Below are positions 5,179 through 64,000 of a stretch of DNA of 64,000 bases, one piece after another (position 1 is the first letter of the stretch; each line of letters starts with the position of its first letter). The notes under the pieces were generated by a model. It saw only the letters and a program-made list of their open reading frames with translations, ran no database searches and had not been told where the DNA came from. The stretch spans positions 225,379-289,378 of the forward strand of contig NW_006768772.1 in assembly GCF_000204055.1 (NCBI RefSeq), given 5' to 3'. Made by a program: the position numbers and the translations under genes. This stretch comes from Melampsora larici-populina 98AG31 (Eukaryota > Basidiomycota > Pucciniomycetes > Pucciniales > Melampsoraceae).

Positions 5179-8100
5179 TTAGGTGGATGGAATGTGGGAG
5201 TCTTGAGGTGTGTCCTCGTCGGTAATGTTGGCCCAAACCCAGCGGTTCTTGAATCGCCAGGTTGAGTTGGAAAATTTGGCGATACACCCAAAAGCCTTCG
5301 GGTTCTTGAGGATATCTGTAGATTCTGGTATCTGAAGTTCCATTATTGCTTCAGTTAGTTTCGTACGTTGTTTTTCGTATCTGTTGCAGATGAATAAGAA
5401 GTGGTCAATTGTCTCGACTCCTCCCTGACAATCGCAGAGGGGGTCGAATCGCTGCTGGTGTTTAAAGAGATAGGAGTTCAGCTGTATGTGATTTGATCTA
5501 AGCTGTGTGATGGTTGTGCACTCGTGTTTTCGTAGATTGCTCAGAGCTTTGAGGTGTTTCTGCTTTGTTGGTTCATGGCCCAGTCGTTTAATTTCGTTGT
5601 CGGTAAAGTTGTTTTTGTTGGCTTTGGACCACTCCGTGATCGCTGACGTGAAGCCCGCTAGGGTTGGTTTGGACGTGAAAGTGCTTGGCAAGTCTCTTTT
5701 TGCCAAGCTGTTAGCTACTTTGTCTACGGTCTCATTACCCTTTACACCTTGGTGGCCTGGGCACCACCGAATCGTGACTCTGGCGTTTGGGAATGAGGCC
5801 GCTATGTAGTTGAGGATTTTGAATGTTTCTTTTCGATCGAGTAATGATGCTATTGTCGGTGGGCAGTTGCTTAAGTCTTTGATAACTGATTGGTTGTCCA
5901 TGATGATGGTTATTCTTCTGGAGTGCTGAGTTGCCGTTCGCATCGCTATGGTTAGGCCTAATTGGACACCTTTATATTCAGCTTTGTAGATTCCGTGGAG
6001 TCTCGCTTTACCTAGGTGTTGGGCAATGGATTTATTGGTGTTCTGACACCACGCTGCCGCTGCGGTGTTTTTGGATGGGATTCGGGAACCGTCTGTGTAG
6101 ATGATAAGATGTTCAGCCGAGTGTTTTAGTCTTTTTGTGCCTAGTATTGCTACTTTCTCAACTTCCTGGATGATTGTCGAAAAATTTGTTGGCCTAGCAA
6201 GGATTGCAGTTGGGTCTACCGGTAATTGTGTAGTGAATTCGTCGAATTCTTGCCTTAGTTCGTGTTGGAAGAATTGTTGGAAAATGTTTCGGTGATACTT
6301 CGGTTTTGATGTTTGTGCCTGTTGGATAATTGGAAACAGGGGATGATGACTGGGTTTCGTAAGAGACTTAGCTATAAAGTTCATGACCTTAGTTTTCAAT
6401 CTTGTCTCTGGTCGTAGTAAATTCATGTCGTGTTGTAGGAAGATGCGTGGCGTGGTTTGAAGCGCTCCTAATGCAGCTCGCGCGCTAGTATTGTCGATTG
6501 TTGATAGGTGGTTGATGAAGTATTTTGGGGGGTCCAGCGGTAGCCATGCTGCTATACCGTAATTGGTTGTTGCGTGTACTGTGGATATTAGTAAGGTCCT
6601 CATTAAATGAGGAGGTATTCCCCATTCCGATTTGGTTAGGGAAGCTATGAAACCTGACCTCTGTTTCCCTTTGGCAATCACATCTTGTTTGTGTTGTGAG
6701 AAACTGAGCTGGCTGTCGAAGGTTACTCCTAGCCATTTCGTACTGGTATGTGGTGTAATGTTCTTGCGTGTACCGAAGTTGATTGTTGGCAGTTCTGCGT
6801 TCTTGGTGTTTTGTTTCCTCGTGTCGAAAATTATCCAATGGCTTTTCTTTGTGTCAAAGATTGCCCCGTGATTTTCAGCCCACATTGATTGTCGATAAGT
6901 GAGAGTGTTCATTTTCGATTTAAGCTGGTGTTGGTCGGGGGCGGATGCTAGGAGGATCACATCATCTACAAAACCTAATGCTTCGGCCCAATCTAATTGT
7001 TCAGCTATGTCTAGTAAAGATGAGTTATAGAGCAGGTAGAGGAGGGGGGACAAGGGAGATCCTTGCGGTAACCCATGGGATAATCCAAAAGGCTCTGATT
7101 CAAATCCATTGAAGGCAAGTCTTGTTGATCGATCTGACAAGAAATCTTTGATGATGTTGATTGTTTGGGAATGTAGGCCTTTTTTCTCAAGTGTGTCCAG
7201 TAACCTTGGGTGGTGGACAGACGGAAAGGCTGACTTTACGTCAGCAAACATGGCTCCTACGATATTACCCTTAATCCATTCACTTCGTATGTAGCTGACG
7301 AGGTGTACTAGCGCCTCCTGGCTAGATCTATTCGGGCGGCCTCCGTAGTGGCCTCGGTTCAGGAGTTGTAACTTTTCCACTTGTTGCGATAGATGGACTG
7401 TGATCATCTTCTCGTATATTTTACTGATTGTGTTGAGGAGCGCAATCGGTCTAAAGGATGAAGGTGAGGTGTAGTCGGATTTCCCTGGCTTGGGAATCAT
7501 GATAGTTTTTGCTTCTTTCCAGCGTGCTGGGAAGATGCCTGTAATAGTAATGCAATGGAATAGAGCGAGGACGTGCCTTTTAACCACTGGCCATATGGTT
7601 TGCCATATCCAGTTTTGGATTCCATCTCTTCCTGGCGCTTTCAGGGGTGGACTGTTGTTGACAATGTCTTCAAGCATATCTTTGTTCAATGACTCGCTTA
7701 AACTGGGCATGGTTGAGGGAGTTATCTTCGTTTCTTCAGATAGTGGGAAACTGAGGGGGATAGTGTCCTGCAGATCGCAGGGAGCAGTTGCAACGCAAGT
7801 AGCATTGAAAAGTGCATCAGCTTTTTCTTCGTTTGACGTACATGTGGCTCCATCCGAAGTGATCAGGGTGCTGATTACTGCTGATGTTTGTCTTCCTGAC
7901 GCAAATTTCTTTGCTTGGAAGAGATTGTCGTGAGTAAGCGTAGAGATGTAGATTTTCCAGTTGTTCTCTTTGGCCTTGTTCATTTCATTTTTGAATTTGT
8001 TGCGTGCAATCCTGTAAGCAATTCGGTCGTCTTCGTGTTTTGTCTTTTTCATTCTTCGTTCGGTTCGTAGGGCTTCCTTTTCGTAGTGGTTCTAAGATCT

Positions 8101-9094
8101 CTGGAATCCACCACTTTTTGTGCTTACCTATGGGTGGTTTCCAGGGTGAGTTGTTGTTCAGGGCTTCTGTAATAGTATCTATTAGTTGTTTGTCAAACTT
8201 ATCAATCATTTCACCTGATGTTAAAGGTTCAATCGGTGGTAAGTTCTTCTGAATTTCTGTTTTCAAGTCTACCTTTTCAACTTTTCTCCAGTTTTTTCTT
8301 GTTCGTATTGAGTTAGTAATGATCCGGTCTGATTTATGTTGTGTTAGGAATGTCGTGATCAATGCTTGGTGGTCGGAGAAATGGCTAGTAATGCTTTCTT
8401 CGTCAATCATGCATTGCTGGATGTTTTTGTCAAAGGTTTCATTGACCCAGGTCTGGTCAATCGAGGTACCTAGCGTTGTTTTTGACCCAACACCAAAGGT
8501 TGGGATGCCACATGGGGACCTGAGGTGCATGTCCCATTTGGACATCAGGTCGACTAGTTTGTCGGCGTCTCGATCTGACGTGTTGATGTGGGGAGGGTTC
8601 CATAATGCCGAGTGCAGGTTGCTATCAGTGTTGATTATGGTTGGTAAGAGTTGAGTTTCGAGTGGGATGCTGTTCATCAGTTCGTCGTATGCTGAGAACC
8701 CGGAGAATAATGCTGGGTCGTTGTATACACATATAGCAAGCAGTTTAAAGCCAGATGCAAATGTTACTGTACACGCTGCGATGTCTCTAGAGGTTGTTTG
8801 GAGGGGGTTGATCTGAGCGTTGAGATCTTTTCTTATGTACAAGCAGGCTCTAGGTCTAGCGCTGATGTTCTTCTCGCTGGGTGTTGAACTGATAAGTGTC
8901 CAGTTGGGCTGTTCTTGAGGTAAATAGTCAACTTTATTTACATTCGGTTCTTGTAATGAGAGGATAGAGAATAAATTAGTAAACTCTGAGTTAAAAAGTG
9001 AGTTAGAAATGTCTGGTGAGTGGCGGCAATTCAGTTGGAGAATTGACTCTGTATCTGGCAAGGTAAGTTTTTGTCGAAGTTGTTGTTCTAACAT
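5179..9094 (-). pseudogene. LINE ORF2: endonuclease, reverse transcriptase and RNase H, one frame break
   Basis: The first part (9094 to about 8080) is an exonuclease-endonuclease-phosphatase fold beginning LQLNCRHS and containing SLQEPN. The second part (to 5179) has RT motifs FADVKSAFPSV, GLPQGSPLSPLL and FVDD, then RNase H with YTDGS, AEYKG, MDNQS and GHQGVKGNETVD, and a C-terminal C-x-C...H...C cluster. Frame changes at the A-run (T4 on the plus strand, 8078-8081) in the linker between EN and RT: the run is one base longer than a continuous frame would need. It could be a real lesion, a base-calling error or, less likely, recoding. The start codon overlaps the ORF1 stop (ATGTTAG). Confidence 0.85.
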
Positions 9095-10890
9095 TGAGAT
9101 GTAGAATCAACGACTTCTGGGGTAACTATCAGATTTGGTGATGCGCTTGGATTGTGAGGGGGGAGGTTCTCAGCAATCCTTGTTGCGCATTGGGGGTGAA
9201 AGGGTGAATGGGCGAGGTCTTGGTTATTTGACTCAAATAGTCCTTTAGCTGTTTTTGTTGAGTCCATCTTGATCAGGGCTCGTACGCAAGCGGTGCACTT
9301 CATAGGGACTGCACCTTTTTTGGGGCATGCGTGTGCGTGGTGTCCATCACCACAGTAAGGGCACATAGCTGGGGATGGGCACGACGGAGCGGTGTGACCT
9401 GTCTTTCGACAATTATAACACCTTTTTGGTGGGTCACGTCCAGCTTCTGTTTTGTGTAAACCACGACCAAACCACACTTTTTCTTTAACACACTTGTTGG
9501 CTTGGTCTTGATTATCTAGTCCTATCAAGAGCGTCGAGTATCTCTTTGCTGGGTCATCTTTAAGCTTAGGGTTGAGCCATCTAATAAAGCTTACGCCCTG
9601 TAATAATTCGGGGTTAGAGGCTAATAGCTCCTCTCTGTGGCTCGGAATATCAGGGTCAAAGGAGGTAGGAATTGCATGTACTACAATGGTAAAGTGTTCA
9701 GGCTTAATACTAAGATTTGCTGAAACTGTTGGGAGCCATGTTTTTTCCATCTCTCTGATCTTTTCTGCATGTGAGGCACTTTCCAAGTGTAGAACTAGGT
9801 CGTTTGATGGGTGGCGCTGAACAGTTTTTACTGTGATGGTTGACGCCGAGGTGTCGGTAGCTTTTATGTTGTTGGCCTTGAAAGCCATGTTGAACCCATT
9901 TATGAGTTGAGTTACCGACAAGGAGCCTAAGGCAACTTGTGTTTTGTCCGTTTGGACCAATGTTACTGTGTTTGTGAGGCGTTTTCGTGCCTTTTGTTTA
10001 GGTATCGGCCTTTTTGGAGCCGTTGTTGTTTGTTTTTGTTGTTGTCCGGTTGCACCCTTGGATGCCATAGCTGCATAGGAGCTACTCGTCTTTTTGTTGG
10101 TCTGTGATGTGGCGGTTTTCTCAGCAACTAGTAGAGAAACTTGCTCTGCGAGCGCATCAAGCTTCTCATTCACTGAGGACGAGGCTTGGAAATCAAAAGC
10201 TTGGGTAGAGCTTGTCATATGGGGGTTCATTAACGGCGCCGCCGCTCTTTTGGAGCCTGCAAGGGCTGGCGCCGGTCTCTGGAAGAGGGTTCTCTTCGTT
10301 TTCTCGAATTGATGCTGGTCAAAGGCCGCATTGATCAACACAAGAATATCCGCACATGAGTCTACATCAATGTGGACCTGTTTAGCGAGTCTGCCTTTAG
10401 CAGGGAGCTGCATGACATCGTTTGCGACTGTCACCAGTTTGGTCAGCATGACCGTGAGGGAACGGTCTTCCTCACAGCCTGGGACTAAACGGGCCATCCT
10501 CTCGGATCGAGGGGTTCCCGCTATCGACTGGATGTGTTCCTGGGCTGTGAGTCCAGGCGTGCTTGTTCTCGCCCTCTTCTTTGCAAACTCGGCAAGAAGG
10601 GGGACTTCTGATCGTTTAGGAGTTGCTCCTAATGCGTCGGAGGTGATTTCGATTTGAGGTAGACCACGATCCGAGCCTTTGAGAAAAGCGGCCACCGCGT
10701 CGTCATTTTGGCTAGACGCGGTCGGGTTCGTCCATCCTGAGGTCGAATTCGAGCTGGGATCGTCCTCTATCATCTGACCCGTGTCAGACGCGCCGGGAGG
10801 CATTGAACGCGAGGATTTGAAGGTCGAGGGTTTGTTGACGATGGTAAAAAGTTTAGGATAATGAAGTGGACGAGGTAAATTTCGGGTCAC
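9088..10890 (-). CDS. LINE ORF1: Gag-like nucleic-acid-binding protein
   Basis: A 600-aa open frame. The N-terminal 300 residues are low-complexity, rich in S, T and A. A folded region follows, and then CCHC-type zinc knuckles near residues 490-540 (RCYNCRKTGHTAPSC, MCPYCGDGHHAHAC and a third C-x2-C). Such proteins coat LINE RNA. A second in-frame Met near residue 30 (MPPGASDTG) could be the true start. Its stop codon is shared with the start of ORF2, which suggests translational reinitiation for ORF2. Confidence 0.8.
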   Translation of the reverse strand: MTRNLPRPLHYPKLFTIVNKPSTFKSSRSMPPGASDTGQMIEDDPSSNSTSGWTNPTASSQNDDAVAAFLKGSDRGLPQIEITSDALGATPKRSEVPLLAEFAKKRARTSTPGLTAQEHIQSIAGTPRSERMARLVPGCEEDRSLTVMLTKLVTVANDVMQLPAKGRLAKQVHIDVDSCADILVLINAAFDQHQFEKTKRTLFQRPAPALAGSKRAAAPLMNPHMTSSTQAFDFQASSSVNEKLDALAEQVSLLVAEKTATSQTNKKTSSSYAAMASKGATGQQQKQTTTAPKRPIPKQKARKRLTNTVTLVQTDKTQVALGSLSVTQLINGFNMAFKANNIKATDTSASTITVKTVQRHPSNDLVLHLESASHAEKIREMEKTWLPTVSANLSIKPEHFTIVVHAIPTSFDPDIPSHREELLASNPELLQGVSFIRWLNPKLKDDPAKRYSTLLIGLDNQDQANKCVKEKVWFGRGLHKTEAGRDPPKRCYNCRKTGHTAPSCPSPAMCPYCGDGHHAHACPKKGAVPMKCTACVRALIKMDSTKTAKGLFESNNQDLAHSPFHPQCATRIAENLPPHNPSASPNLIVTPEVVDSTSQC

Positions 10891-10929
10891 GTGACCTTAG
10901 AGAAAACCTGTACGAAGTGTGGATCTACC

Positions 10930-49796: not shown

Positions 49797-50761
49797 GATC
49801 AAGTGGCTGGTGCACTGGATTAACCTTTTATCTTGGTGAACAAATGGTTGTTAAATGATGGAGACAAGTGATATAAAAGGTTGTTCTTCCATTTGAATAC
49901 TCTCATGGAAATCTATATCAATTTTGAATTCTAGGGATGCACCTTGGGAATTCTATGATTCAGTTCTCAAGGTTTGATTGGGAGAAAGGGTTTCTCAGAG
50001 GGATATTCTTGTCCTTCAATGGATTTACCAGGTCTATGGGCTAGCAACCCCAACAATCACAGAAGCTGAAGTCTGATAAACACGCAGTCAGTATCTTCAT
50101 CCCACCGCCAAAGGTTCTATTTAAACACCCTTGGACTTGATGTCTGTTGGAATCATCACCTGATCATTCAGAGACATATCAGATGAATAACCAAAATAGC
50201 TTTGGTCATTGGGTAGGTCTTGCAGTGTGATGGGTGATACAACTTATAGTAAAGCATCTGATCACCTTCTTAGCTCTTGCGGCAATTTTGGTGGCCCTGC
50301 GTAAGTGATATTCCACTTTCTAAGCTGTATTTGCTCATCAAACTTCTGACTTCCTGTGATACCATCAGGAAATTTCACTGAAATTCACAAGATGCATAGA
50401 ATGTTGGAACAAATCACGTTCACAAAATGGTTTATGTCACATTTCTATTTCATATTATGTTTACTAATGATTTAATACATGTTGTAATTTGTTACATGAC
50501 TTTACTCACAAACTTTGTAAGTTTCCAAACCTAATCACGTGATGTACCGCTAGTTTTAGTTCATCAATCCATCCGGCCTGAGAGAAGCTTTCTTTCTTTT
50601 CATTCAACTATATTGAAAGCTTCTTCTCTACAACCATTATATCATCTCATCACTCCGGATTACTCATTCCTTCTTGACTTCTGACTGATATAATTGTTGT
50701 TTGGGATTGATCAAGGAATCTGAGATTCCTATATAGAAGACTCAATAATTTGGAGGAAAAA
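49797..50761. other. Upstream region of the SUN-domain gene
   Basis: No exon with a membrane segment was found here, although SUN proteins normally have one. An AG at about 50730 would allow a short in-frame exon extension (RLNNLEEKMQW), which suggests that further 5' exons may exist. Confidence 0.35.
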
Positions 50762-51493
50762 ATGCAATGGATAAATCAAACACACCAGTCACACTTGAAT
50801 ATGATGTTAAAGATGTTTGGAGAAGAAGGTATTGAAAAGAATCATGACTATACAACCAGCCTTGTACAAGACATCAACCAACTAATACAAGCCTCAGAGG
50901 AAGTAAAGTTTATGGCAGAAGAAGGCATCAAACAATGTACAAAAGATAGAATTGGACACCAGGACTATGCTGCATTGAAGACTGGCAGGAGTGTAATTTC
51001 AAAACTAACATCAAGCTCAGTAAAACCAAATACAAGGAGTACATGCCATGACTTCTCCATTCCACTTTTAAAAGACAACTCAGCAGATCTTTGTGGTCCT
51101 GAGATAGAAATATTTGGGGATTCATCAGCTGGGGAATGTTGGGCATTTTCAGGTATAGTGGGCCAGATTGGAATTGATTTAAGCCATCAAATCATAGTTG
51201 AATCAGTAAAAATTGAGCATATTGGATCAGAGATGGCACAGGGAAACATAAATTTGGCACCTAAGAATTTTGAGGTTTGGGGTTCAAGAGCAGTGGGGAA
51301 TGACTATGAGGAGGTATTGTTACTCAGAGGGATTTACAATATTACAAATTCTTCAGTGATACAAAATTTTGTAGTGACAGAAGGCAATTTGCAGCAATTC
51401 TACAAGAAGGTTATTTTAAAAATATTATCCAATCATGGGAATCTTCAGTATACATGTTTGTACCGGGTCAGGGTCCATGGAAAACAGTTCTGA
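50762..51493 (+). CDS. SUN-domain protein (Sad1/UNC-84 type)
   Basis: An intronless frame of 243 aa from the first ATG. Residues 1-60 are helical and could be a coiled coil. The SUN domain fills about 67-240: DYAALKTGRSVI, GECWAFSGIVGQIGIDLSH, VKIEHIG, APKNFEVWGS, and the closing ILSNHGNLQYTCLYRVRVHG, a hallmark of the family. SUN proteins span the inner nuclear membrane and bind KASH peptides to link the nucleus to the cytoskeleton. The transmembrane segment expected before the coiled coil is absent, so the model is either 5' incomplete or a truncated gene; the frame itself is intact. Confidence 0.85.
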   Translation: MQWINQTHQSHLNMMLKMFGEEGIEKNHDYTTSLVQDINQLIQASEEVKFMAEEGIKQCTKDRIGHQDYAALKTGRSVISKLTSSSVKPNTRSTCHDFSIPLLKDNSADLCGPEIEIFGDSSAGECWAFSGIVGQIGIDLSHQIIVESVKIEHIGSEMAQGNINLAPKNFEVWGSRAVGNDYEEVLLLRGIYNITNSSVIQNFVVTEGNLQQFYKKVILKILSNHGNLQYTCLYRVRVHGKQF

Positions 51494-55959: not shown

Positions 55960-56965
55960 TAAGCAAAAGCACCAAATTGCAAATCCCACTACAATCATGT
56001 GTTTTTAATTTGTCCTTGCTTTTTTACCTCTTCTTGTCTTTCCACTATGCCTTCCAGAAAATCTGGCCAGATTAACCAATGAAAATCGATTGATGAGAGG
56101 TATGGAGATGATATTACTGTGACTGATATGTAAGTCAAAGCATCCATTTTTTTACATATGTCCATCTTGTCATCAACATGAGGATTCAACTGATGACTTA
56201 TTCAAAATTTGTTTTGCCTTTAAGTTTACCATTTCATTCTTTTTGCTTTGTTTTTTTGGATGACTAAGTTTATAACAAAAAACCACAAATCAAAAATAAA
56301 AAGGTTTTGCATCCATAAAATTGAATGAACCTGAGGAAAAAAATCATCAAAAGGTTATGGAGTTTCCAAAATTAAAGTTGAATCAATTGGATCCCCTAAA
56401 TTGTAATTCATATTTTGTTTATCTTTTCCCATCTTTCTCTTTTTTGTTATTCTTTCTAAATATCAAAATGCAAGACAAAACCAATGAAGATTTGTGTCTT
56501 CTTCCAAGTTTCTATTTTTTGAAAGGTGATCTATGAGCACCTTTGAGTTTGCAGTCTTTTTTTCACAGAAACACCCAAAACAAGAAATGAGGTTTCCTTT
56601 TCACAACATTTACCTAGAATGGAAGTGGTACACGTAAAAAACCCCAGTGATTATATTCCCTCAAGACATCCTATCTTGATTGTCCCTAAAGTGATATATT
56701 CCTCTGACTTTTTGGGTTTTGGGGGCATGGATATATATGGGGATGAACTCATTATATCGATTTCATGAGGATACGGTAGATATGAAGCCTTGCTTATGCT
56801 TCAAATCCTATTGTTGATTGACACCAGAGTCTCTCATCAAGAGGTTCAACTTAATAAACAAAATTGAGGGTACACAGTAAATAGATGTGTTTGTGATGAT
56901 CCACTCAAATTGATCCATTACATCCAAAGACCATATACTTATAATTACAATGTGGATGGAGTACT
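55960..56965. other. Intergenic, nothing recognised
   Basis: AT-rich DNA up to the DUF6589 transposon; short ORFs (for example 56321-56536 plus) lack support. Confidence 0.4.
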
Positions 56966-56972
56966 GGGTCAG
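56966..56972. other. Target-site duplication, left (GGGTCAG)
   Basis: The same 7 bases occur at 63672-63678, each touching the outer end of a terminal inverted repeat. Confidence 0.75.
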
Positions 56973-57307
56973 ACAAACTTATCAAAGTCCAATCGTACCT
57001 TGGATTTATTAACGACAAGTCGTTTCCGAGGTACGAGGGACTTACATGTTATGTTGTGATTTTGGCACGGAAGGTTTTGAGATTTAGTAGAGGAAAAATC
57101 GATTTTCCTCTACACTCACCCACCTCTCATGCCCCAGTCCCATAGTCATACCAAAGATTCTCCTGCTTCTTCTGAAGAGATCACTCTCTTCAGAATCCTC
57201 GAAAAAAAATCAGGAAAGAAGTTTTCATTGAGACGAAAACATTGTCTTCAGTGATTTTGAGAATCGACTGCGGATTACAGAAATCTGTATGTAATCTCAA
57301 ATTTCAA
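56973..57307 (+). repeat. Left terminal inverted repeat
   Basis: Over the outer 278 bp it differs from the right copy at 8 sites, 6 of them CpG transitions. Contains a nested palindrome around 57165-57196 (TTCTGAAGAGA...TCTCTTCAGAA). Confidence 0.85.
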
Positions 57308-57761
57308 TTTGGCTGTTTTTTTTCAATATCCCTCTATTACAATAGGAAGCACCCTTTTGGCTGAGAATATTCAGCATGTTTGAAACTGCAATATGAATGG
57401 GTCATCTGGACTATGTAGGAACCCCAAGTCGTGAGCAAGATGCCTCTGTTCTAAAAGGACTTCCGAAATGAAGAAAGGTCGATATTGTTAAAAGTACAGA
57501 CTCGTACCAGATCACACATCATAGTTCAAGTCGAAGAGAAGACTGTTTAAGCAAAAGAGATATCAGATCTTGACACCAAGGTTGGGGAGCTTGGAAAGTT
57601 CATTTGATGCATGAGACGTACTGCTTTCCCCATCTTTGAAAAGAAAGGAACGCACCGTCTCATTTTTTCATCGTTGACTTTTCTTTATCCTGTTTATTCG
57701 AACATCTTCATCGTTTCTGATTCATATACAAATCACATTCCAAGATAAAATCTATCTTGAC

Positions 57762-59557
57762 ATGGTTCGAAAATTACGAAACAAGAACAAAGAGATGTCC
57801 CTACCTCCCATAATAGAGGACAAAGATGATCCCTTAGAAACCACTCGGCCATTGTTGCCTACCAGTTTGGTGAAAGGTTCATTGTCACATCAAAAGAAGA
57901 TTGTGAAGAGCGAATTCAAAAGAAATTTTCAACAGACTGCAAAAGATGTTCAAGCAGACACTATTGTTAGCGTTATGAATGGATTCAACACAATGCTCCT
58001 GGCGAGTACTGGCTTTGGGAAGTCGAGAATTGCGCTTTCCTACTTGCTTCTGTTTCCACTTGAAAAACTCCCGGTCATGATTGTCATAAATCCTCTGGAT
58101 GCTTTAGGCAATAATCAAGTCAGTGCTGTTTGACAGTTCCTTCAATCTAAAGCTGATCAATATCACTGATTGATATGTAACTATTTTGTTGATGGAGTTA
58201 GGTACTAGAGCTCCTGCCAGGGATAACTGGAATCAACCTCACCAAGGTTTCAGCAACTGATGAAGATGTATGGAAGAAGCTAAAGAGTCACTTCTATCAA
58301 GTGATATTCTTGGTATATATTTTTCAAACTTCTTCATTTTATCATCATCAATCAGCTTTCTAATCAACTGAATGTTGCAATTCTAAATAGAGTCCTGAAA
58401 TGTTCTTGAATAGTAAGAAATTCCAGAACTTGTATTATAGTCCAGATTTTCAAAAACACCTAGTTTTGAAGGTGGTTGATGAAGCTCATGTCATCTATTC
58501 TTGGGGTCTTGTTGCTAGCAGACATACAAAAGGTCTACAAAGTCACAATCAACTTGCAGATGTATGCAAATTTAGAGCTTCTTACGGAGATCTTGGTCAA
58601 ACCCTTGCAGCTACTGATAAAGTACCAGTGCTTCTGCTTTCAGCGACTTGTCAACCAATTTGCATTGAAAGCATCTGGAATAGCCTTCACTTGACGCCGC
58701 ACAACCGTGTTCTCATCCGAGGCGAGCTAGTTTGGCCGGAAATACGATTCATTCGCATGTATCTCACTCGACCATTGAGCACAGCCAAAGATCTAGCTCA
58801 GCTGATTCCACACCAGTCTGTAGTCAAAGATGAAAACCTTCCATCAACTATAATATACTCTGGCCAGCAAGACTCGACTCTTGTTGTATCCCAGCAAGTT
58901 CATATTGCTCGAGGAAACCCAAACGGTGCAAACAATGGAAATAGCTTATGTTGTCGTAATTATCATGCGGCTACGGGTCCCAAGGATAAGCTCACTCGAG
59001 CTGATGAGTATGGCAAAGGCAAATTTTGTGTCATTTCTGCAACAACAGCGCTTGGTTTGGGCCAAGACTGGCACGAGGTACAATCTGTTATCATCATGGG
59101 TGCAATGGATCCAAATGTTATGAGTCAGATGGCAGGAAGAGGTGGGAGGGGTGGGAAAGATAGTGTAGCAATAATGCTAGTCGAACCTCACCGATCAATT
59201 GGGCAGAACTCTATGGAGGATTTTGACACAAATGCCGTCATGAATGACGACGACCGGATGCACGCCTTTCGAGGCACTTCGGTCTGTCTACGTGTTGCGT
59301 TGAACGCTGATACATTGTAAGTCTTTGTTTAACTGATTATAATTATAATTACATTTCCCAATTGATGGTTTGATTAACATCTTAGATACGGTCATTTTCC
59401 TCTGACGGTTGATGATGCAATCTATATCAAAGAGAGGGATCAACAAGCTGCCGCTGGGATGAAGCCTTGCCAATGCTCAGTATGTGATCCTGCTGGCGCA
59501 ATCCAGCTCATTGAGGCTCTTAGAACACTGATCGCATCGGATTCCAGGAGATGTTGA
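57762..59557 (+). CDS. RecQ-like DEAH-box DNA helicase core
   Basis: Exons 57762-58118, 58202-58312, 58391-59316 and 59386-59557 give 521 aa in one frame. Motif I is ASTGFGKS (81-88), motif II VVDEAH (184-189), motif III LLLSATCQP, then ATTALGLGQDW and SQMAGRGGRGG (motifs V and VI). A late CQCSVCDP resembles the zinc site after the RecQ core. RecQ helicases unwind 3'-tailed DNA. Here the gene is cargo of a TIR element. Coding-like sequence continues to 60185 in shifting frames, so this stop is probably secondary. The core motifs are all present; activity is possible but unproven. Confidence 0.75.
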
Positions 59558-60185
59558 ATTGACCTACAATCCCAATGAAACTGCCTGAAGAAAGCTTCCT
59601 GAATCCTCTTCCGATGTTGCCGCCACTGCCAAAGTCCTTTGCAGGAAGACCAATCCCTTGCACCGACAATGACGAAATCTACTGCTCAACTACAATGATA
59701 GAACTAGCTGCAGATCTAACAGAAGCCTTCATAGACTCTTTCACAAATACTATCCGGACGGATCCGATCTAGATCCGATCCAGCTTTTCAACTACAAAGA
59801 ACTATGGATAGTGGTAAAGAATTATGAAACTGTTCTATTAGGGCAACATCTCCGAGGAATTTTGGTTAGTGAGCCTTTACCAGGAACTTTTGAATTGATC
59901 ATCAAAACTATTGAGCTATGGAACACATCAAAAAGTTATCTGGCTCATATTGAGAAAAAAGAAAAAGAGAAAGCAAAAGATTTGGCAGCTTGGGAAGAAG
60001 GGACTCGGATTTGGCTTGCATATGAAGAGAAGATGAGAATTAAAGACACTTTGGCTGAAGAAAAGAAAAAAAAGGCTGCATTACGAGTTCAAAAGCGTTT
60101 GGAAACTGAGGCTCGTAGACTTCGGGAAGAACAAGAGGAGAGGACTAAATTACAGCTTCGATTACACGGAGAAGCTTCATTGTAA
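59558..60185 (+). pseudogene. Frameshifted C-terminal extension of the helicase
   Basis: Open pieces in three frames continue the protein: ELTYNPNETA (about 59555-59590), PEESFLNPLPMLPPLPKSFA to AADLTEAFIDSF (59584-59745), and YYPDGSDLDPIQLFN through a long charged helix, EKKEKEKAKDLAAWEEGTR to LRLHGEASL (59750-60185). At least three frame changes lie near 59545, 59588 and 59745. The end is a basic/acidic coiled coil of about 85 residues, absent from ordinary RecQ proteins. Confidence 0.6.
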
Positions 60186-60265
60186 CCCTTGCTGTAAAAG
60201 TAAGTCTTCCGCATTTCTCTTCTAGCTTTCTAGCATTTATAGCTTAGTTCTGACACATTTAACAC

Positions 60266-63128
60266 TCATGATTTCTCTATATTTTCATCAATAGTGAAGC
60301 CTGATAAGGACCCCCAGCCAAAGCAACAGGGTGTGTGTTCCCAATCTTCTTTCCTAATGATGGACTTGAACTTTGCAATACCATCAGCATGTATATCATT
60401 CAATGGGGCCAAAACCGAGGTGTTGCGTTTGGTTAGAATGAGTTTGTGGTCGGCAAGGTGATCGCAAACCATGTGCATGAACCTAGTAAGGGATTCTGGG
60501 CTTATTGGATGTTTATTGTTCTGGTATACGTGTTCTAGACCTGATCTAAGACAAAGTTGACAAATCAAGTGTTGTAACTACACAATTTGAAATTGTCAGT
60601 TTTTCACCTATTTTTGTAACTTCCAAGGCCAATTCAGAGTTCTCTTACCAATGGCACATTGAGTGACAATCTGTCAATCAATTTGTCAAGATCAGTTCCT
60701 CACCCCTGGTAGAATTTGAAGGGATTTCAGTTAGACAGTCTGTTCATTGTAAGATCTTGAAATCAGTATGAAAATCTCACCAAGCAATTATAAAAGTATT
60801 TGATCCAGAAATTCTGGATCTCAAGGTAGAAGTCTTTAGTAACCCAGTGACCCTCTCGACCAGCAGAAGGAATTAGTAAACAGTGCTTTATAACTCTTGC
60901 AAATTTTTTGGGTAAATATTTTTCTAAAACAAGTATGTATTGAGGAAGATGAATAGCATAAGAAGTCAATCTCTTGATACCTTGCGCCATAATAGCCCAT
61001 CTTTTCCACATTGACATAACACGTCCAATATCACCAGCGCGTATAGCATAATCAGCTTCAACAATTGTCGCAAAGTCACGTAATCTCAAGCGTAGGTTGT
61101 AGAGGGCGTTGTCCTCAGCCTTCTCAGCTTCTTGTATAGAATCACCAGTGAAATATTTATCATAAACTTCATCAATCAAACATTGAGCAACACCTGGATT
61201 TCTAGGATCAAATCCACTACCCTTAGAAGTGTTGAACTCCCTATGATTACAAATACATGGATCAGATTAAAGCCATACATTTTAAACAATGATTAGAGCA
61301 AACAGCAGAAAGGACAAACTTCTGTAAAAAAGCTAGTGTTGCAGAATGAATCTTGTGCACTGCTGTCATCAAAGTTCCAAAGTCTTTATTATCAAAAAGC
61401 TTGTCAGCTTTGATTCCTAAGCTTGCAGCCATACGATGAACTCCAGGATCTTGGGAATCTTTTGGATTTCCAAGATAAACATCAGCAATTGCACTTGTCA
61501 AGTTCCACATAGTATGTGATCCGGCTAAACAACGCATAAGAATTTGTAGACTTTCTTCAGGATGTCCAGCTGGATATTGCTTTTTAGCCGCAGAGTCAAA
61601 GTTTTGAAGAGTACCTAGATTGCCTTCTACCTGTTGAACATGTGAAGCAAAATCTTCTGGCTTCAATCCAAGCTGTTTGATCAGCTGTTCAAGGACTTGT
61701 CCAACACTATTCGCCGAGTTTTCTGAAGCTGTCATTAGTTTGAGCATATAAATTTCGGGCTTGTACATCTGGATAGGATCAACGGATGGTGGTACTGATT
61801 CAAGATGAGTTTTGCAATAATTATAAGCGGGTGAATTTTTATCTAACATCAGTTCAAGCAATGCATTAACTAATTGAGAATTTCTGGCTAATCTGTGATG
61901 TGATTCTTCGGCATTTGTTGGTAATAGATCATGTAAATTGACAGGCGTAGACTTGCTACGTTCCATTGCATCGTAAAATGTGTCAAGACTAACATCTTCA
62001 GGTGTGATATCCTCGGTTGAATGCTCAGGTACTAGATGTAAATATCCCCAAGTGCCGTGTAAAGTCTTCATGGTCGAGTCTACATTACCATCATGGACTG
62101 ATGATTGTATATCTATATTATCTATACATAATAATGGTCTGATTTTGTATGATCTAGCAGCAACTGATTTAATTTTTTTTGTGGTTTGTTCTTTCAGGGT
62201 ATCCATGGCTTCATTCACTGCCTGTTTAGATAGTGATAAGCCTAGGAAGTGTAAGAAGTTGTTCATCTTCTCTGTAACACCGCACGCGAAAAATGTCAAT
62301 GAATTTTGAAGTTGCATTGCTGAATGTCTCCTATTACAAGCAAAACCAATCATTGAGCATACTATGGCCGGTAGCTGCGTACAATGTTTTAGTTGAATGT
62401 GTGATATCAGTTCATGATCTTTCAAAATCCGACTTGAGTTGTCTTTAAAACAACTAACCTTGTTCAATCTATGTTCCTCGATTCTAGGTAGCGCGTTGGG
62501 AGATCTTCTTAGGAATTGATCACCATCATTATTGCCCTCAAGGTCTTCAACTTCTTTGTGTTCTCTTTTCTCTTTTTTTTCCATCCTAGCCGCACTTCGA
62601 CTATCACACATCTCGGTTGCATACTCCAGCTTGGATTTGATTAAGCTATGCAAGAAATCCATGCTTGATTCAATCACACTCATACGTTCTTTCTTGGCGT
62701 TGTCATCAAAAAATTTGTGTGTCACATTCTTTGAGTGATAATACATGCCATCGGGAGGTTTGCCACTTGGAGGATCTTGGTGATTGACAATTTCTTTCGC
62801 CTTTGAATAATATGAAGACAAGGATTGATCAGACAATAAGCTTCTTAACTTTGATGCTGAGTTTGTTACATAATATTTCCTATCTTACCTCTTCCAAAAT
62901 AAACTCTTTGGACCATCGGGTGAGCCCATTCTCTTTATCATCCTTGTCAAGCCCTCCTATTGTTGTCATCAGAAGCTTTGTCGACTGCCAGCCTTCGCTA
63001 GTCCCCCACTTCCCGTGCCGTTCCTTGATCACCTCGTCGTCAATGGTGAGAAAGTTCTGGATGAATTTTTTTGGACTCATATCCATTTCATTGATAAGCT
63101 TGCAGATCTTGATCAATCGCTCATTCAT
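60266..63128 (-). pseudogene. DUF6589 protein, candidate transposase, one in-frame stop
   Basis: Exons on the minus strand: 63128-62889, 62800-61304, 61236-60781, 60705-60649 and 60577-60266, all phase 0, about 853 codons. N-terminus LIKICKLINEMDMSPKKFIQ, then W-containing blocks usual for DUF6589 proteins of basidiomycetes. The core has LLCIDNIDIQSSVH (about 303-316), HGTWGYLH (328-335), VEGNLGTLQNF (471-481), GSHTMWNLTSAI and DFGTLMTAVHKIHSATL. The scattered acidic residues (D in CIDNID and elsewhere) could form an RNase H-like active site; the N in GNLGT stands where I recall D in relatives. A TGA at 60700-60702 interrupts the small fourth exon. Terminal repeats on both sides make a transposase role likely. 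Confidence 0.72.
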
Positions 63129-63335
63129 AGGTGGAAGAAGTGGAAGTTTGGGTGTGTTTTTGTTTTTTTTGCCATTTTCAACGATCTGAAGTACAATCAA
63201 ACAAAGACTAAGTGGATATAAAGATAGAGAGCCGCACTCTCTACTGACTTTACATTCAGACCCACATCTTTATCCGATCGCATCCAGAGTTCTCATTGAG
63301 AACTCAATTTTTTATTCTCTCACTGATTGTTGCTG

Positions 63336-63671
63336 ATTGAAATTTGAGATTACATACAAGTCTTCCTGTAATTTCTCGCAGCGAGTCAATTTTTGAAGAC
63401 AATGTTTTTGTCTCAATGAAAACTTCTTTCCTGATTTTTTTTCGAGGATTCTGAAGAGAGTTATCTCTTCAGAAGAAGCAGGAGAATCTTTGGTATGACT
63501 ATGGGACTGGGGCATGAGAGGTGGGTGAGTGTAGAGGAAAATCAATTTCTCCTCTACTAAATCTCAAAACCTTCCGTGCCAAAATCACAACATAACATGT
63601 AAGTCCCTTGTACCTCGGAAACAACTTGTTGTTAATAAATCCGAGGTACGATTGGACTTTGATAAGTTTGT
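63336..63671 (-). repeat. Right terminal inverted repeat
   Basis: Inverted copy of 56973-57307; the outer 278 bp are about 97% identical. The inner end (near ATTGAAATTTGAGATTACATAC) matches again after a diverged 50-bp stretch. Confidence 0.85.
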
Positions 63672-63678
63672 GGGTCAG
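63672..63678. other. Target-site duplication, right (GGGTCAG)
   Basis: Identical to 56966-56972 and directly next to the right terminal repeat. Confidence 0.75.
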
Positions 63679-64000
63679 ATGAGGTCAGATGGGTACCTCA
63701 CTATGTTGGTGTAGATCAAGTCTAGAAGAACAATATACAATGCTGACACAATACTTCCTTAGAATATGAGACTTTAATTACCAGTGCATATTTTCTTGAA
63801 TAATTCAGTGACTAGCAAAGTTGACTCTTTGATACCAAAGCAATTATCTGGAGTCTCCCATAGAGATACATGACTTATCAGCTCTTCTGCTCTGATCAAA
63901 TCTTTTTTGTTCTGTCTTTTGTAAACAAGTGTCATTTTGGCATGGGGCCAATTTGTGAGACCATGTACCTTTTGATGAGTAGGTGTCAGGTCATCAAATC
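63679..64000. other. Window end, nothing recognised
   Basis: AT-rich sequence that was contiguous with 56965 before the transposon inserted. No ORF or repeat supported. Confidence 0.4.

Follow-up and report, generated by a model that had tools for sequence, protein, structure and literature searches.

What kind of mobile element holds, between long inverted repeats, a gene for a RecQ-like helicase and one for a protein of the DUF6589 family, and which of the two products moves it? The question arises from a locus of the rust fungus Melampsora larici-populina 98AG31, lying in a 64,000-nucleotide stretch of contig NW_006768772.1 (hereafter the window; C8:225379-289378), where an initial annotation had placed a terminal inverted repeat (TIR) transposon with these two genes. 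Genome searches covered one 98.3-Mb assembly. The results presented below indicate that the window element (56974-63670) is most probably a copy of a long-TIR DNA transposon of the AcademH kind, with the DUF6589 protein as its DDE transposase and the helicase as its partner.

Limits of the element and target-site duplication

The element begins with CAAACTT and ends with AAGTTTG. Alignment of its left repeat (56974..57308, + strand, tip CAAACTTATC) with its right repeat (63336..63670, - strand) gave 92% identity over 340 columns, in agreement with the inverted repeats of about 335 bp first proposed, and the inverted arms 56973-57250 and 63394-63671 matched over 278 nt at 97% identity. A chance inverted repeat was discarded, as a genome search with the left repeat gave 31 matches, only two of them the window's own. 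Outside the tips stands TGGGTCAGA, immediately before CAAACTT on the left (56965..56973) and immediately after AAGTTTG on the right (63671..63679). The direct duplication proposed for the outer ends was thus found, but its length is 9 bp and not 7, and the element had been drawn one base too wide on each side, as the A on the left and the T on the right are part of the duplication and not of the repeat. Comparison with relatives and with empty sites settled this length, because the relatives have tips of the form C(A/T)AACTT... with 9-bp duplications and the empty sites hold one copy of the target.

The relatives were analyzed as a set of 37 end-paired elements from this genome, one of them the window's, each assembled from two adjacent tips in opposite orientation; the sources of the tip pairs included the first 100 of 974 tip places, part of whose pairs were used. 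An exact 9-bp duplication flanked 31 of them and two more had one mismatch, the rest being one element with 8 bp and three with a degraded duplication or none. Expressed as the longest exact flank match, the values were 9 bp in 31 elements, 8 bp in 1 and 3 bp or less in 5, so that a 7-bp duplication, the longest match in 0 of 37, was rejected. In the control, where left flanks were compared with the right flanks of other elements, 0 of 1332 comparisons gave a 9-bp match, even when one mismatch was tolerated. Among the long elements (6.7-12.3 kb, n = 10) nine had the exact 9-bp duplication and the one on C7 had none.

The initial annotation had also raised the question of whether empty sites with a single target copy exist. 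A query in which the window flanks were joined with one copy of the duplication (junction at 100) was searched against the genome and, besides the two flanks themselves, found four paralogous loci spanning the junction, three at 78% (query 5-127) and one at 73% (query 5-125). All four aligned sites have a single target copy and no insert, with TGAGTCAGA at three loci and AGAGTCAGA at the fourth, which implies that the window element inserted into a copy of a repeat.

Family size and members

With at most one mismatch, the pattern CWAACTTAACWAAGTCCC of the tips was counted 471 + 503 times in the genome, versus 4 + 3 for the reversed control, and the paired members fell into sizes of 69-93 bp, about 570-660 bp, 1-4 kb and 6.7-12.3 kb. 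A recent origin of some copies is suggested by two triplets of DUF6589 loci from different contigs, which share 99.6-99.98% identity over 4.1 kb (four pairs compared), the near-identical stretches stopping short of the element ends, which is compatible with duplication of larger segments. Another member of this wider family, a non-autonomous one, lies in the window at 764-1337, with tips CTGACCTAAC and CTAACCTAAC, flanks ACAATGTAT and AAAATGTAT that agree at 8 of 9 positions, and 67% identity to another locus (L116). Elsewhere, a further locus (L086, C16:647658-648246) has two right-hand tips of one subfamily in the same orientation, 311 bp apart, perhaps nested or tandem ends.

The DUF6589 protein as a predicted transposase

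The two genes inside the element are convergent, as first described, with the helicase on the + strand and DUF6589 on the - strand. The DUF6589 gene (60640..63143) has several exons, recognized by PF20231 in two frames (E 6e-24 and 1e-31) and by tblastn with the protein P0004, which matched 63143-62883, 62806-61307 and 61197-60640, the last match crossing stops. In the four frames scanned on the DUF6589 side, PF20231 was the only Pfam family above its cut-off; Pfam lists it as of unknown function, and many of its relatives are "hypothetical proteins" of Puccinia and Melampsora.

An AlphaFold model of the protein (predicted local distance difference test score, 84) adopts an RNase H fold that includes an all-alpha insertion, with a conserved D-D-E, the predicted catalytic acids being D85/D88, D312 and E552. 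The closest folds found by VIA-align were the transposases of the P element (the top match), Hermes and ISCth4, together with RAG1. Identity of DUF6589 to the P element, Hermes (hAT) and ISCth4 (IS256) transposases is about 8-11% in the aligned parts, and we know of no RecQ partner in P, hAT or IS256 elements. The RNase H-like fold suggested at the outset is therefore present in the model, and on this predicted structure the DUF6589 protein is very probably the transposase of the element, as had been proposed, although of a family with 9-bp rather than 7-bp duplications.

The helicase and its association with DUF6589

The helicase gene (about 57762..59557, + strand, limits approximate) contains introns and encodes a superfamily 2 helicase of RecQ type, with the Pfam domains DEAD in the frame 57678-58133 and Helicase_C in the frame 58391-59320. 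An open frame 3' of it (59673..60185, + strand), without a Pfam match, is possibly a further helicase exon. The RecQ likeness of the helicase comes from TIGR00614 (recQ_fam, E 2.7e-14, below the curated cut-off of that model) and from matches to RECQ4, WRN and RECQ5 in the PDB.

Genome searches yielded 104 listed DUF6589 matches, merged into at least 94 loci, and at least 128 loci for the helicase exon (candidates scored: the best 102 of 248 for DUF6589 and the best 128 of 193 for the helicase). Among the 94 listed DUF6589 loci, 82 lie no more than 8 kb from a helicase and 81 of these are convergent with it, against a chance expectation of about 0.02 per locus; the helicase thus travels with DUF6589 in this genome. 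Ten long elements had both ends mapped, and among the matches listed eight contain both genes, one DUF6589 alone and one the helicase alone. The ratio of nonsynonymous to synonymous substitution rates (dN/dS) in the helicase exon had a median of 0.127 (21 pairs, dS 0.2-1.5), and at the sequence level the helicase appears to be under purifying selection. Both the stable association and the low ratio agree with the role of partner first assigned to the helicase.

The window copy itself is probably decayed and inactive, to judge from its sequence: the simplest splice model of its DUF6589 gene, read from the frames by eye, has an in-frame stop near the C-terminal part, and its two repeats diverge by about 8%.

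Subterminal palindromes and minimal elements

About 10 nt inside each tip begins a palindrome, (T)AAGTCC...GGACTT(A), which occupies 56985..57043 at the left end of the window element and the mirror position 63601..63659 at the right end. Two more palindromes lie further inside the left repeat, GTAGAGG...CCTCTAC at 57087..57113 (mirror 63531-63557) and TTCTGAAGAG...CTCTTCAGAA at 57170..57195 (mirror 63449-63474). Both arms of the first were recognizable in 71 of 77 ends, with one mismatch allowed, and its inner stem covaries: the sequence differs between subfamilies and keeps complementarity to its own partner. In a first arm-swap test with 24 clusters, 0 of 20000 permutations reached the observed value; this test is weak because it included tiny elements, in which inverted ends alone give complementarity. 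When these were omitted, two ends added and the clustering loosened, 10 clusters remained, in which the mean was 7.0 for own arms versus 3.8 for swapped ones and 0 of 20000 permutations reached the observed sum; own arms equalled or exceeded every swap in only 6 of the 10 clusters, 7 of 72 ends had no recognizable arms, and in one cluster (L067) an arm is mutated. Folding of ten end pieces as DNA gave z values of -1.3 to -7.1; for one piece (L110), 19 of 200 shuffles folded at least as well.

Measured from the tip, the palindrome extends to a point about 50-84 nt inwards (one end, whose arm is mutated, is not counted), and such variable spacing would be easier to reconcile with a hairpin or cruciform than with a rigid dimer site. 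The smallest members, seven elements of 69-93 bp (L122-L128) that are all the pairs under 100 bp among the first 100 of 974 tip places, consist of a tip, one palindrome and an inverted tip; a perfect 9-bp duplication flanks all seven. We infer that the subterminal palindrome is part of the end-recognition signal. No description of the covarying end palindrome or of the tiny tip-palindrome-tip derivatives was found in the literature searched, and both are apparently new.

Classification of the element

Kojima reportedly treated AcademH in 2020 as a lineage of the Academ superfamily. According to a passage of PMC10045372, AcademH elements make duplications of 9 or 10 bp and AcademX elements of 3 or 4, a difference tied there to a helicase versus a nuclease, and an excerpt of PMC6416283 describes fungal Academ copies with DEAD/DEAH and recQ_fam domains. 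The window family shares with AcademH a helicase encoded inside a fungal TIR DNA transposon, a 9-bp duplication and an RNase H-like DDE transposase, the latter by predicted structure, and since helicase and duplication match what is stated for AcademH we place it within this known helicase-bearing kind. The pairing with a helicase, taken at first as unusual, was therefore overstated, as it has been published for TIR transposons (passages of PMC10045372 and PMC6416283). In passages of a 2025 rust transposon survey, Academ figures only in the background and references (PMC12210899). The literature searched yielded neither a mention of DUF6589 nor a description of it as the transposase of such elements; the kind of element is thus already known and the DUF6589 assignment apparently new.

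Several observations weigh against this placement or its parts. The kinship to AcademH is putative, being drawn from published descriptions of helicase and duplication, and AcademH is described in a passage as low-copy in Basidiomycota, Ascomycota and Mucoromycota (PMC10799480), whereas at least 94 DUF6589 loci were found here. Plain Foldseek gave no match to the DUF6589 model below E 0.001, its best hit being the P element at E 0.018, so that the assignment of the fold depends on VIA-align and on topology. A 9-bp duplication is missing from 4 of 37 elements, no helicase is listed within 8 kb of 12 of the 94 listed DUF6589 loci, and 46 of the 128 listed helicase loci have no listed DUF6589 partner. 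The 21 pairs behind the median dN/dS share sequences, and the figure stands without a null; the closest helicase pair (dS 0.015, outside the range used) has a ratio of 1.04, and 10 of 30 helicase exons contain a stop, in 3 of these only at residue 290 or beyond.

The alternative that survives best, although we regard it as unlikely, is that the DUF6589 elements form an independent DDE lineage and a superfamily of their own that acquired a RecQ-type helicase, the 9-bp length being coincidental. It would account for the contrast in copy number with the low-copy AcademH of the excerpt of PMC10799480, it suits a kinship to Academ drawn from descriptions, a fold with matches to P element, Hermes and ISCth4 alike, and a family of unknown function in Pfam and without mention in the literature searched, and MuDR/IS256 relatives are said to give duplications of 4-10 bp. 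However, a helicase together with a 9-bp duplication is precisely the combination stated for AcademH in the passage of PMC10045372, and DEAD/recQ domains are reported for fungal Academ copies in that of PMC6416283.

Three related comparisons concern known superfamilies. For MuDR/MULE elements, which are marked by a MULE-type transposase profile, the four frames on the DUF6589 side gave PF20231 as the sole family above its cut-off, and ISCth4 (IS256) is one of the nearest folds. Members of the P superfamily make target duplications of 7-8 bp, and the 9 bp found here depart from this, though the P-element transposase was the top fold. Helitrons, which resemble the window family in encoding a helicase and in having a palindrome near one end, use an HUH nuclease and have no inverted ends and no target duplication; with its predicted DDE protein, two inverted ends and 9-bp duplication, the window family was not assigned to them.

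It is very improbable that the helicase, or both genes, were captured and are moved by an unrelated transposase recognizing the same ends. It is true that many relatives sharing these tips are too short for either gene, but 10 of 10 long elements with both ends mapped hold at least one of the two genes and 8 of 10 hold both, DUF6589 has a predicted DDE fold, and the low dN/dS points to selection on the helicase, which argues against a mere passenger.

The target duplication of Kolobok elements is TTAA. KolobokH, which likewise has a DDE transposase, appears in a passage of PMC9587614 as a fungal TIR lineage with a RecQ helicase, alongside one red-algal Kolobok with its RecQ helicase on the complementary strand. 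A KolobokH or other Kolobok lineage was rejected as the least probable reading of all, since the duplications here differ in length and are of varied sequence and the helicase is a separate gene, convergent in 81 of 82 paired loci among the matches listed.

Proposed mechanism

With the AcademH-like assignment, the DUF6589 transposase would bind tip and palindrome, cut at the CWAACTTAAC tips and join the cut ends to target strands staggered by 9 bp, a chemistry suggested by its fold. The RecQ-type helicase would be a required partner, most likely unwinding or remodeling the ends or the strand-transfer intermediate, or alternatively driving a replicative step. A helicase-aided replicative route is conceivable because ISCth4, among the nearest folds, comes from a family (IS256) that uses copy-out; the data fit cut-and-paste equally. 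More tentatively, and with less than even probability, helicase and palindrome may act together, the ends being used as extruded hairpins or single strands, which would make this a helicase-dependent and possibly replicative (copy-out or strand-peeling) DDE transposon instead of a plain cut-and-paste element. The complete minimal substrate would in that case be one tip-palindrome-tip unit, 69-93 bp long.

Other features of the window

At 5179-10896 (- strand) lies a retrotransposon resembling long interspersed nuclear elements, with a 970-aa frame that has domains of reverse transcriptase and RNase H and, upstream of it, a 602-aa frame whose weak zinc-knuckle match falls under the cut-off. A protein with a Sad1/UNC (SUN) domain, probably a host gene, is encoded at 50711-51493 (+ strand).

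Implications

These results give the Pfam family DUF6589 a likely function, that of a DDE transposase, with at least 94 loci in this genome, and the DUF6589 "hypothetical proteins" of Puccinia and Melampsora are therefore probably encoded by transposon rather than host genes. They also tie a RecQ-type helicase to DDE transposition, through its association with DUF6589 and its low dN/dS, and the 69-93-bp elements with perfect duplications narrow the requirement in cis to a 10-nt tip and one palindrome.
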